Source: Pseudomonas sp. HOU2 (GTDB lineage: Bacteria > Pseudomonadota > Gammaproteobacteria > Pseudomonadales > Pseudomonadaceae). Taken from it: a stretch of 64,000 bases of DNA. The stretch covers positions 5,251,001-5,315,000 of the forward strand of contig NZ_CP160398.1 in assembly GCF_040729435.1 (NCBI RefSeq), read 5' to 3'. The position numbers were made by a program, and so were the translations under genes. Below, piece after piece: positions 13,987 through 19,251 of the stretch. The notes beneath the pieces are model-generated. The model saw only the letters and a program-made list of their open reading frames with translations, searched no databases and was not told the DNA's origin. Numbering within the stretch: the stretch's first letter is position 1; the number at the start of each line of letters is the position of its first letter.

Positions 13987-14199
13987 AAACTTCCTTTCAT
14001 CCGAAGCAACCAGGCCTTGGCAGCAGCTCTACCTTGGGGCTAATCTGCAAGCGAGATCAGCGAAACGATCGCTAAGGTCTGGTCTTGTCAGCTACATGCT
14101 TGTTTCCCGCCGGCAACCCGTTTGCCGATGTACTTTTGGCCTGTAAGGCCCGGGGCGGGAATACGGAAAGTCTATCCATCTATCCGAGGGGGACGATTC

Positions 14200-14547
14200 A
14201 TGAGCACAGCCTATCAAGAAGACATCAGCAGCAATGTTCTGCGCCGCATGAAAGAAGGCGGTTTCGACTTTTCCCGATTCCATCCCATCGAGTTCTACGC
14301 CATTTTCCCGGACGAGGAGCGGGCGCGCAGGGCGGCAGGCAAATTTCGTGGTGAATCCATCAATGCCCAGGTCAGTGCGCGCGACGATGGCGCCTGGTCG
14401 CTGGAATTGAGCAAAGTGATGTACGCGACCTATGACGACATTGGCGATTTCGAGCAGGGCTTCTCTGCCGTGGTCGAGCCGCTGGGCGGCATCATCGAAG
14501 GCTGGGGCGTCAAGCAGGAGGTGCGCAACCGCCATCGTCTGAACTGA
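14200..14547 (+). CDS. RraB-like ribonuclease E regulator domain protein
   Basis: The 115-residue protein matches the regulator-of-RNase-E-B domain pattern: a helix with NVLRRMKEGGFDFSRFHPIE, a strand and helix EFYAIFPDEERARRAAGKF, and a final KVMYATYDDIGDFEQGF...GGIIEGWGV. In E. coli, RraB binds RNase E and changes which RNAs it cuts. Whether this distant homologue does so is inference. GAGGGGG precedes the ATG at 14200. An in-frame upstream ATG adds an unlikely leader. Confidence 0.75.
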   Translation: MSTAYQEDISSNVLRRMKEGGFDFSRFHPIEFYAIFPDEERARRAAGKFRGESINAQVSARDDGAWSLELSKVMYATYDDIGDFEQGFSAVVEPLGGIIEGWGVKQEVRNRHRLN

Positions 14548-14571
14548 TCTCTGGTTTAGCTTTTTTAAAGT

Positions 14572-14640
14572 CAAAAGATCGCAGCCTTCGGCAACTCCTA
14601 CAGGTGATTGGTAGGAGCTGCCGGAGGCTGCGATCTTTTG
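14572..14640. repeat. REP doublet, family B, compact
   Basis: Inverted arms AAAAGATCGCAGCCTTCGGC / GTAGGAGCTGCCGGAGG with only a few bases between them. It can form one long hairpin downstream of the RraB-like gene. Confidence 0.9.
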
Positions 14641-14669
14641 CTTTTGCTTTCAAAACATTTCAGAAAGGC

Positions 14670-14697
14670 AAAAAAAAGCCACCGGAGAGGGTGGCTG
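14670..14697 (-). terminator. Minus-strand terminator with no minus-strand gene upstream
   Basis: Read on the minus strand, the stem AGCCACC/GGTGGCT with loop CTCTCC is followed by eight Ts. No leftward coding gene lies to the right until the one ending at 18335, so this terminator must serve a short non-coding transcript. Confidence 0.8.
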
Positions 14698-14811
14698 AAA
14701 GGGAAGACCGATAAGGAGAGGAAACCGGTCAGGGTCACGGCCTGCGGGGACTGCACGGGCAGTCCGGATCAGGTGGGCTGCAGCCTCCCTTGTGGGAAGT
14801 TTGCAGCGGAT
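14670..14811 (-). ncRNA. Predicted structured small RNA, about 142 nt
   Basis: A complete non-coding transcription unit can be read on the minus strand. It has a promoter (14818-14846), a start near 14811 and a terminator with eight Ts at 14670. Between them are three more hairpins: GCTGCA...TGCAGC, whose inner stem CTTCCC/GGGAGG closes a four-base ACAA loop; GGACTGC/GCAGTCC with a CCGT loop; and GACCG/CGGTC enclosing an unpaired pyrimidine-rich segment TTTCCTCTCCTTAT. There is no plausible reading frame with a ribosome site. I do not recognise the family. The pyrimidine-rich stretch is complementary to ribosome-binding sites, so base-pairing repression is a reasonable guess. Confidence 0.55.
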
Positions 14812-14817
14812 GCGCGG

Positions 14818-14846
14818 ATTATCCGCAGCCCGGCGCAAGCAGTGAA
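14818..14846 (-). promoter_or_regulatory. Predicted sigma-70 promoter of the small RNA
   Basis: On the minus strand TTCACT (14846-14841) and GATAAT (14823-14818) are separated by exactly 17 bases. They match the consensus at four and five of six positions. The predicted start falls just before the first hairpin. Confidence 0.55.
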
Positions 14847-14991
14847 ATCAACTCTGACTATGCTGGTGATAGGCGATGCAATGCGTCGCAATGAAGCGGG
14901 GGCAATCCGCTTGGGGCATTTGCCGCACAGGAATGGTGCGGTGCTTGCGGCGTGATTATCCAAGCGATTGAAATCAAAGCGTTTATGCCGA

Positions 14992-15006
14992 TGGCACGGG
15001 CCTTGC
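14992..15006 (+). promoter_or_regulatory. Sigma-54 (RpoN) promoter
   Basis: TGGCACGGGCCTTGC is an exact -24/-12 element: TGGCAC, five bases, TTGC. It sits 36 bases before the ATG of the ATP-grasp gene, leaving room for a start near 15018 and the AAGGAG ribosome site. Transcription would need RpoN and an enhancer-binding activator; the activator is not in the window. Confidence 0.85.
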
Positions 15007-15041
15007 GAAGGCCTGTAGGTCCGGGTGACAAGGAGTACGGC

Positions 15042-16451
15042 ATGATCCGCACCTATTTTGATGAAATGTACGATGCCGGCGGCCAGGTCCGCCCGCATTA
15101 CCGCGAGTTCGCCCGCTGGCTGGCGGACACGCCTGACGAGTTGCTGGCACAACGGCGACGCGAGGCCGATCTGCTGTTCCACCGGGCCGGGATTACCTTC
15201 ACGCTCTATGGCGATGAGCAGGGCACCGAGCGCCTGATTCCATTCGACACCATTCCGCGCAGCATTCCCGCCAGCGAGTGGCGGATCGTCGAGCGCGGCT
15301 GCATCCAGCGGGTCAAGGCGTTGAACATGTTCCTCGCCGACCTTTATCACGAGCAGCGCATCATCAAGGCCGGGATCATCCCCGCCGAACAGGTGCTGGC
15401 CAACGAGCAGTACCAGTTGGCGATGCAGGGCCTGGATCTGCATCGCGATATCTATTCGCACATTTCCGGCGTCGATCTGGTGCGCGATGGCGACGGCACC
15501 TACTACGTGCTCGAAGACAACCTGCGCACCCCGAGCGGCGTGAGCTACATGCTCGAAGACCGCAAGATGATGATGCGCCTGTTCCCCGAACTGTTCGCCG
15601 CCCAGCGCATCGCGCCCATCGACCACTATCCGAACCTGTTGCTCGACACGCTGAAAAGCTCCAGCCCGATCGACGATCCGAGCGTGGTGGTGCTGACGCC
15701 GGGGCGTTTCAACAGTGCGTTCTTCGAACATGCCTTCCTCGCACGGGAAATGGGCGTTGAACTGGTGGAGGGTGCCGACCTGTTCGTGCGCGACGACAAG
15801 GTCTTCATGCGCACCACCGACGGGCCGAAAGCGGTGGACGTGATCTACCGCCGTCTCGACGACGCGTTCCTCGATCCGCTGGCATTCAACCCCGACTCGA
15901 TGCTCGGTGTGCCGGGGCTGTTGTCGTCCTATCGCTCGGGCAACGTGGTGCTGGCCAATGCCATCGGTACTGGCGTGGCGGACGACAAATCTGTGTACCC
16001 GTTTGTCACCGAGATGATCCGTTTCTACCTCGACGAAGAACCGATCCTGAAGAACGTGCCGACCTGGCAGTGCCGTAACCCCTCGGAACTGTCCCATGTA
16101 CTGGCCAATCTTGCGGATCTGGTGGTCAAGGAAACCCAGGGCTCCGGCGGTTACGGAATGCTGGTGGGGCCGGCGTCAACCACGGCGCAGATCGATGCGT
16201 TCCGTGAGCGGATCAAGGCCAAGCCCCACGCGTACATTGCGCAACCGACGCTGTCGCTGTCGACCTGTCCGACCTTTGTCGAAAACGGCATTGCGCCGCG
16301 CCATATCGACCTGCGTCCGTTTGTACTGTCTGGCCGCGAAACCCGGGTTGTGCCCGGCGGTTTGACCCGTGTCGCCCTGCGTGAAGGCTCCCTGGTGGTG
16401 AACTCCTCTCAGGGCGGCGGAACCAAGGACACCTGGGTGGTCGAGGATTGA
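15042..16451 (+). CDS. Circularly permuted ATP-grasp protein (DUF404/407 type)
   Basis: A 469-residue putative carboxylate-amine ligase of the circularly permuted ATP-grasp family. The typical opening MIRTYFDEMYD, a middle VLEDNLRTPSGVSYML, the VVLTPGRFNSAFFEHAFLAR segment and the C-terminal KETQGSGGYGMLVGP glycine-rich loop are all visible. The start at 15042 is preceded by AAGGAG and lies just after the sigma-54 promoter; an earlier ATG would place translation upstream of that promoter. It is followed within 12 bases by the alpha-E gene. Family work links these genes to peptide synthesis and breakdown; the substrate is unknown. Confidence 0.92.
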   Translation: MIRTYFDEMYDAGGQVRPHYREFARWLADTPDELLAQRRREADLLFHRAGITFTLYGDEQGTERLIPFDTIPRSIPASEWRIVERGCIQRVKALNMFLADLYHEQRIIKAGIIPAEQVLANEQYQLAMQGLDLHRDIYSHISGVDLVRDGDGTYYVLEDNLRTPSGVSYMLEDRKMMMRLFPELFAAQRIAPIDHYPNLLLDTLKSSSPIDDPSVVVLTPGRFNSAFFEHAFLAREMGVELVEGADLFVRDDKVFMRTTDGPKAVDVIYRRLDDAFLDPLAFNPDSMLGVPGLLSSYRSGNVVLANAIGTGVADDKSVYPFVTEMIRFYLDEEPILKNVPTWQCRNPSELSHVLANLADLVVKETQGSGGYGMLVGPASTTAQIDAFRERIKAKPHAYIAQPTLSLSTCPTFVENGIAPRHIDLRPFVLSGRETRVVPGGLTRVALREGSLVVNSSQGGGTKDTWVVED

Positions 16452-18334: not shown

Positions 18335-19141
18335 TTATGGCTTAACCTTGCGCCCAGCCATGTGCTGCAGATAACCGATCAGCAACTGCAAGTCCCCCTC
18401 TGGCAACACATCCGCCGAAAACCCCGGCATCTTCGCCTGCGGCCACTGGCGCAAACTCTGCGGATCACGAATGTAGCGCTTGAGGAAGTCCGCGCCGAAA
18501 TACTCGGTCGGGTTGTACGGAATATTCAGATCCGGCCCGAACTGCGCATCCCCGGCACCGTTCAACCGGTGACAGGCCAGGCAATTCTTCTGAAACAGGG
18601 CAAACCCCTGATTCACCGGGTCATCCGTTTTCAGCTTGGGATCCGGCAGCAGGACAGGGAAGCGCTCGGCCACTGGTGCCATGCGTTTGATGCTCGCCAC
18701 CTGGAACGGCCATTGTTCCGGGCTGATATTGCCGGCCTGCGGGTCGGTCCACACCAGATAGAACGGCCCGGCACTGTGCTTGCCTTCGGACAGTGGCGGC
18801 CACGGCTGCGCCGGATCCTCGATCGCCAGCCAGGCCTGCGCGCCTTTTGTGTTGAGCAACGGTGCAGCGTTCAGTTCGGCGGCAAACCCGTCAAGTGCCA
18901 CCGCTTGCAGGTGATCGGTCGGTTTGATCCCGGTGAGCAGCGCCGCCACGGGCACGGCGCGATAAGTCATGTCCTTCTTGTAGGACACATCGTTGTTGAT
19001 GGTCAGAGTTTGTGCTTGCGGATGCTTGAGCAACTCTTCGGTCTGCCAGGTGCGACTGTTCTCGCCCAGTTCCAGCATGAGCTGCGCCGCAGACAAGGGC
19101 ATGCTCAGCAGCAAGGCCCAGAACACAATGAGCGTTTTCAA
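18335..19141 (-). CDS. Exported cytochrome c with N-terminal oxidoreductase-like domain
   Basis: A periplasmic electron carrier. I chose the TTG at 19141 because it opens a clean signal peptide (KTLIVFWALLLSMPLSAAQ) and has GGGACGG upstream, giving 268 residues; an ATG 48 bases earlier would spoil the signal. Residues about 20-150 resemble a small molybdopterin-oxidoreductase-like beta domain. The C-terminal third carries one haem site, CLACH, with the probable axial Met in AKMPGFSAD. Its redox partner is unknown. The 31-residue membrane peptide gene lies upstream on the same strand. Confidence 0.85.
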   Translation of the reverse strand: MKTLIVFWALLLSMPLSAAQLMLELGENSRTWQTEELLKHPQAQTLTINNDVSYKKDMTYRAVPVAALLTGIKPTDHLQAVALDGFAAELNAAPLLNTKGAQAWLAIEDPAQPWPPLSEGKHSAGPFYLVWTDPQAGNISPEQWPFQVASIKRMAPVAERFPVLLPDPKLKTDDPVNQGFALFQKNCLACHRLNGAGDAQFGPDLNIPYNPTEYFGADFLKRYIRDPQSLRQWPQAKMPGFSADVLPEGDLQLLIGYLQHMAGRKVKP

Positions 19142-19251
19142 ATGATCGCCGTCCCTGTCGTGGAAGTGCGCAAAGGTTCGCACAGCCACGCTGGCCCGGG
19201 TAGCGGGCCAGTCACATTTTGTCTGGTGATAGCGGGCGCCTGCCGCTTGAG

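Follow-up and report, generated by a model that had tools for sequence, protein, structure and literature searches.

Comparison with described small RNAs

PrrF and ErsA are Hfq-dependent trans-encoded small RNAs (sRNAs) of Pseudomonas, RsmX, RsmY and RsmZ act through repeated GGA motifs, and OxyS is included in Rfam. The excerpts of PMC2375449 used here describe RgsA as an sRNA of P. aeruginosa and P. fluorescens regulated by GacA and RpoS, and those of PMC5720770 give the OxyR operator as ATAG-N7-CTAT-N7-ATAG-N7-CTAT. Among other sources on the genus, again represented by excerpts, PMC4353343 describes searches against Rfam and with related tools that predicted 16 sRNAs for P. fluorescens SS101, PMC7324555 names a list of P. 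putida Pit sRNAs, given in a supplementary table, and PMC5627042 is the SBW25 Hfq paper.

The locus studied here lies in a 64,000-nucleotide stretch of DNA from Pseudomonas sp. HOU2 (hereafter, the window), contained in a 6.05-Mb single-contig genome. A first-pass annotation had predicted a small RNA of no recognised family at this position, and Rfam 15 agreed: no family reached the gathering threshold in the window or in 14 relatives chosen to span the forms of the RNA, which gave sub-threshold matches only, and locus L063 did not give even a sub-threshold match. The same outcome applies to OxyS, no Rfam family being matched at gathering score in the window and the 14 relatives. Searches of the open-access literature in PMC found no entry naming the locus; earlier detection by RNA-seq, for instance in supplementary sRNA tables, is possible. 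We class the gene as a new sRNA family that is ordinary in kind.

Like PrrF and ErsA, the predicted RNA has its own promoter, an unpaired pyrimidine-rich site and a Rho-independent terminator with U8; unlike them, it has no Rfam match, its motif CUUCCCUUU abuts the terminator and its middle is mostly unconserved, and its binding of Hfq is putative. By sequence it displays several features of the Hfq-type class, namely an independent promoter, a long-U-tail terminator, a conserved unpaired seed-like segment and a non-coding character. With RsmX, RsmY and RsmZ, as presented in the excerpts of PMC2375449, it shares the property of being a small non-coding RNA of the genus, but its conserved motif is CUUCCCUUU and Rfam returned no match. 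RgsA, an intergenic sRNA of about 120 nt found in P. fluorescens (PMC2375449, excerpts), is similar in these respects, whereas the present gene adjoins rraB and has no strong matches in 195 genomes of the family's other genera. As in the OxyS/OxyR operator arrangement, tetrads spaced 11 bp apart are located directly upstream of the -35 hexamer of an sRNA gene; in contrast to the OxyR operator, full matches are confined to the two inner tetrads, and there is no Rfam match.

Structure of the predicted RNA gene

The promoter proposed in the first-pass annotation, TTCACT-N17-GATAAT (14846-14818, minus strand), is the sole sigma-70-like match in 14000-15600, a region for which shuffled sequences average 0.5 matches; its -35 hexamer (14841..14846) and -10 hexamer (14818..14823) were located by promoter scan and in the alignment of relatives. 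With the start placed 7 nt past the -10 hexamer, the predicted RNA would be about 142 nt long (14670..14811, minus strand) and would end at a Rho-independent terminator with U8 (14670..14696, minus strand), whose stem occupies 14696-14677 and whose T's run to 14670. The region 14811-14670 folds at -57.1 kcal/mol, compared with -37.1 ± 3.4 kcal/mol for shuffled sequences (z -5.87; 0 of 200 shuffles as low), and the predicted structured transcript and eight-T terminator of the first-pass annotation are upheld. A 177-nt query covering the whole gene region matches its own genome at one place only, and a plasmid collection gave no match. The 5' end CAUCCGCUG (14804..14812, minus strand) is conserved as CAUYYGCUG in the alignment of relatives, and in close relatives its GCUG is predicted to pair with a CAGC located further downstream. 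The letters of the middle region (14716..14796, minus strand) are not kept across the genus, and the region is absent in short forms. The fold, the single match in the genome and the syntenic relatives support the predicted RNA, and we regard the locus as very probably a real RNA gene.

Compensatory changes, suggested at the outset as a check on the stems, were clear for the terminator and ambiguous for the structure as a whole. Across 42 modules, chosen for diversity out of 98 distinct ones, six of the eight terminator pairs show changes on both sides. Pairing is possible in 96.1% of cells, compared with 58.0% at most in slid controls, which also had no more than 6 double-change cells, versus 36 in the true register. 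Four of five measures exceeded the shuffles, the exception being further pair types (406 of 500 shuffles as high). In the 19-row alignment of close relatives, the share of cells that pair is 77.6%, 37.5%, 83.5% and 93.1% for helices 1, 2, 3 and 4, helices 2 and 3 being the lower and upper stems of the second hairpin. Double changes occur at 8 pairs in this alignment, versus 4.8 in column shuffles (5 of 500 as high), while the structure slid by -1 equals the true register, with 8 pairs each and 10 cells against 11. Covariation of the whole structure is therefore ambiguous.

Distribution and synteny

In a blastn search with the 177-nt query, 73 of 199 genomes of the genus were matched, many by one end only, while RraB is present in all 199. 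A covariance model built on a 37-nt module, consisting of CUUCCCUUU and the terminator region, detected 117 of the 199 genomes at E <= 0.01, 98 of them with at least 38 bits (E <= 1.4e-4); some of the 19 weak matches are to the terminator alone. All 98 strong matches lie within 552 nt of rraB, measured from lower coordinate to lower coordinate. The other 101 genomes, about half of those sampled in the genus, have no strong model match, and the RNA therefore appears dispensable. In a sample of 298 genomes of the family, 132 were matched at E <= 0.01, many of the weaker matches covering only the terminator, and 38 bits were reached exclusively within the genus, in 46 of 103 genomes; the 195 genomes from 18 other genera all stayed below this score, the best at 35.3 bits. 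In a collection of 84,980 species, each represented by one genome, 111 stretches contain the promoter pattern TTCACTGCYYG-N9-GCGGATAAT. The 80 of these that were listed are all from Pseudomonas, and each lies next to CP_ATPgrasp (in view for 77), rraB (in view for 74) or both.

About 900 nt beyond rraB were compared for 100 loci, together with 30 blastn loci and 80 named promoter loci. The 100 were taken in order of RraB similarity, starting beyond the 19 nearest genomes, which leaves the most divergent genomes under-represented. An alignment of the 72 module-bearing loci among these 100 with the window revealed conserved blocks, comprising a sigma-54-like box, an element of about 29 bp with the -35 and -10 hexamers, the CAUYYGCUG 5' end, and CUUCCCUUU with the terminator, separated by the unconserved stretch 14796-14716. 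On a midpoint-rooted codon tree of the CP_ATPgrasp N-terminus (84 loci and the window), presence of the RNA was placed at the root with 5 changes, compared with a mean of 13.2 and a minimum of 11 in shuffles; 16 of the 100 loci (14 RNA-less by pattern) yielded no usable piece and are missing from the tree, so that losses may be undercounted. We read this pattern as an ancestral RNA gene that was lost several times.

Some RNA-less loci (L132-L135, L140 and L137; genomes G070, G006, G141, G169, G079 and G044) carry a part-decayed element followed directly by a bare terminator-like hairpin and a T run, an arrangement that resembles the outcome of a deletion of promoter core and RNA body.

Nine-base motif, CU-rich hairpin and candidate targets

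Directly preceding the terminator is the nearly invariant motif CUUCCCUUU (14698..14706, minus strand), a putative seed that is predicted to be mostly unpaired. Its exact form CTTCCCTTT is present in 112 of 114 distinct promoter-bearing regions, which were selected by promoter and not by the motif, versus 9 of 5700 shuffles; the exceptions are L105 with CCTCCCTTT and L217 with ATTCCCTTT. Further comparison used 146 distinct predicted RNAs of 47-164 nt, obtained from the 178 module-bearing loci among 210 by keeping those with a recognisable element; module presence allowed at most one mismatch in the nine bases, and contig ends cut some loci. The nine bases have a median predicted unpaired probability of 0.92, versus 0.51 for the sequence 5' of them, and exceed 0.7 in 95% of these RNAs.

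Four nucleotides 5' of CUUCCCUUU ends the CU-rich loop (UUCCUCUCCUU) of the third hairpin (14706..14730, minus strand), the 3' arm of which ends at the first C of the motif. In the long forms (at least 100 nt), 58 of 82 distinct RNAs have a stem of at least 5 pairs ending at CUUCCC, with the 3' arm ending at, or at most 2 nt from, the first C of CUUCCCUUU, while such stems occur in 217 of 1640 shuffled upstream pieces. The loops of those long forms have a median pyrimidine fraction of 1.0, and some stem pairs change in step when inspected by eye (GACCGG/CCGGTC, GATCGG/CCGATC, GACTGGT/ATCAGTC). The hairpin is absent from all 64 shorter forms (0 of 33 RNAs below 65 nt and 0 of 31 RNAs of 65-90 nt), and the CU-rich loop therefore cannot be a general seed. 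Its letters are local: 8 of the 19 sequences aligned from close relatives, the window counted, have the window segment TTTCCTCTCCTTAT (14724-14711) exactly, and TTTCCTCTCCTT occurs in just 1 of 72 other RNA-bearing loci. Confinement of the loop to the subclade of the window was ruled out by the 58 long forms. The first-pass annotation had assigned the seed to the CU-rich segment; the hairpin proved widespread among long forms, but the constant segment is CUUCCCUUU instead.

The perfect complement of the motif, AAAGGGAAG, has only 6 occurrences in the genome, the RNA gene itself among them, and AAAGGGAAG-N2-14-ATG occurs at one place, in a hairpin-like stretch. No same-strand open reading frame of at least 80 aa from ATG lies behind it, and an exact anti-Shine-Dalgarno target in the own genome was rejected on this ground. 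In a comparison set, 18 of 19 genomes have matches to AAAGGGAAG-N2-14-ATG, and two of the matched strings are each shared by a pair of genomes (G004/G005 and G004/G006), so that conserved targets are possible. The lack of a convincing perfect complement at gene starts of the own genome points to imperfect pairing, use of the other site, or protein binding instead. Depletion of AAAGGGAAG as off-target avoidance was also considered: the own genome has 6 copies versus 27 of the reversed pattern, and the ratio was 0.61 in genomes that lack the RNA, 0.41 in near relatives that carry it and 0.57 in other genomes that carry it (totals for three sets of 10 hand-chosen genomes, 30 in all). This idea was rejected, as the complement is rarer in all three groups with no consistent link to the RNA.

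We consider that the RNA is probably a base-pairing regulator, a view somewhat strengthened by the wide occurrence of the CU-rich hairpin among long forms. The RNA could instead act on a protein, its pyrimidine-rich sites and U-tail titrating Hfq or another pyrimidine-binding protein, much as CrcZ and RsmZ titrate their respective proteins. The missing complementary target in the own genome would fit such a role, as would a short, unpaired motif adjoining the U-tail and the second pyrimidine-rich loop of long forms. However, known titrating RNAs carry repeats, the short forms read have a single copy of CUUCCCUUU each, and the CCC core of the motif is as invariant as its U's; titration is thus unlikely.

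Upstream element and the divergent operon

The conserved element CTATCACCAGCATAGTCAGAGTTGATTTC (14844..14872, minus strand; CTAT-N7-ATAG-N7-TGAT), of about 29 bp, overlaps the -35 hexamer by 3 bases and is probably an activator site. No second copy exists in the genome with up to 3 mismatches allowed. Among loci L061-L160, the full pattern is present in 70 of 72 RNA-bearing versus 1 of 28 RNA-lacking loci (L149), and the shorter CTAT-N7-ATAG in 71 of 72 versus 5 of 28. The 28 RNA-lacking loci were defined by exact pattern, yet the pattern-negative L107 and L118 (genomes G002 and G167) score 42.3 bits with the covariance model; after their reassignment the tally is 70 of 74 versus 1 of 26. Within the RNA-bearing set of 72, L105, L144 and L152 are without a strong model match. 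The CP_ATPgrasp start is not in view in 14 of the 28 RNA-lacking loci, where element loss may be plain rearrangement; in the 14 with this start, the full element is found in 1 and CTAT-N7-ATAG in 3 (L137, L140 and L149). At L145, L146, L153, L158 and other loci the element is kept though the -35 and -10 letters differ, with unchanged spacing, which fits the expectation for an activator site.

Matches to the element were found in 52 of the 298 family genomes, 51 of them within the genus, and it accompanies the strong module match in 45 of 46 genomes, the exception being G444. Seven genomes have the element without a strong module match (G126, G292, G391, G405, G410, G435 and G451), four of them matching it at 3 mismatches. 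G405, G410, G451 and G126 (L149), with the element at 0-3 mismatches, may have a changed RNA or a decayed locus.

The spacing of the CTAT-N7-ATAG tetrads allows the tentative suggestion of a LysR-type activator. Against the OxyR operator the window element scores 10 of 16, a score attained by 26 positions when one strand of the whole 64-kb window is scanned, and scores of 10-13 were obtained across 93 distinct sites, themselves selected for the inner tetrads; for OxyR as the regulator, the geometry is no more than suggestive.

On the far side of the element, plus-strand genes with CP_ATPgrasp, Alpha-E and transglutaminase domains form an operon preceded by TGGCAC-N5-TTGC (14992-15006, plus strand; read by eye). 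This box, which we take to be sigma-54-type, is almost invariant in the 73-sequence locus alignment. Upstream of it, a conserved GCACAGGAATGGTGC dyad, presumably an NtrC-like motif, is located at 14925-14939 (plus strand); the dyad and the box together suggest nitrogen control of the operon. The element and the apparent promoter might serve this divergent operon, the terminator merely insulating rraB and the RNA having no role. The -35 hexamer does lie at -193 to -197 nt from the CP_ATPgrasp start in 76 of 77 listed loci, but RNA-less L062, L064, L132 and L150 keep the sigma-54 region with an element that is not intact, and CUUCCCUUU and the compensated hairpin would be left unexplained. We find this explanation quite improbable.

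Neighbouring genes and coding potential

The neighbourhood described in the first-pass annotation was confirmed in its main points. The gene at 14200-14547 is rraB by its PF06877 domain match, and its product is 100% identical over 115 residues to the RraB at the homologous promoter of P. koreensis DSM 16610 (L239); the sigma-54-like box lies on the other side. The terminator had been called otherwise unexplained, with no leftward gene for more than 3 kb, and the nearest plausible one in the mechanical list of open reading frames is indeed only at 18335-19189 (minus strand), the CP_ATPgrasp, Alpha-E and transglutaminase genes filling the gap. A long near-perfect inverted repeat, AAAGATCGCAGCC...GGCTGCGATCTTTT, which we take to be REP-like, occupies 14573-14645 between rraB and the RNA terminator and may be an end point of rraB transcription. 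The analysis revealed no functional tie between the RNA and either RraB or RNase E.

The minus-strand transcript would head into the 3' end of rraB, and a cis-acting role, as a read-through antisense regulator of rraB or as a leader, can be envisaged. It is very improbable, considering that a strong terminator separates the RNA from rraB and that rraB, the next gene downstream, is on the other strand.

On sequence evidence the RNA gene is non-coding, in agreement with the absence of a reading frame noted initially, except that the mechanical list includes a 62-aa TTG open reading frame (14838-14650, minus strand) that overlaps the RNA and starts upstream of its predicted start. A short peptide gene or dual-function RNA is hardly credible: closed frames of at least 15 codons exist in 13 of the 146 distinct predicted RNAs, but 95 of the 146 lack ATG and lengths vary freely.

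Proposed mode of action and implications

On balance, we favour an activator-controlled, Hfq-type trans-acting sRNA with one or two pyrimidine-rich sites, following the general working mode of Hfq-type sRNAs. A transcription factor, plausibly LysR-type, would bind the element reaching into the -35 hexamer and switch on the sigma-70 promoter. The RNA would end at the intrinsic terminator with U8, Hfq would sit on the U-tail, and the single-stranded CUUCCCUUU would base-pair with target mRNAs at purine-rich stretches of the Shine-Dalgarno type. In long forms, the CU-rich loop just upstream may be a second pairing site for purine-rich mRNA stretches, the remaining middle serving as a tolerant spacer.

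A more specific version appears doubtful: a genus-restricted RNA with a fixed CUUCCCUUU seed-terminator and a dedicated activator element of about 29 bp, its body exchanged between clades and a second seed in long forms, acting as an OxyS-like stress RNA of fluorescent pseudomonads. If this were true, the RNA would be the main or only target of its activator at that form of the element. 

Selection keeps the ends of this RNA while its body is replaced, which explains why whole-sequence search finds fewer relatives (73 versus 98 of 199 genomes). Pseudomonas, a well-studied genus associated with plants and soil, would gain an sRNA family absent from Rfam. The parts of this RNA gene are sharply defined (element, seed, terminator and, as an option, the CU-rich hairpin), which makes its expression, regulator and targets directly testable.
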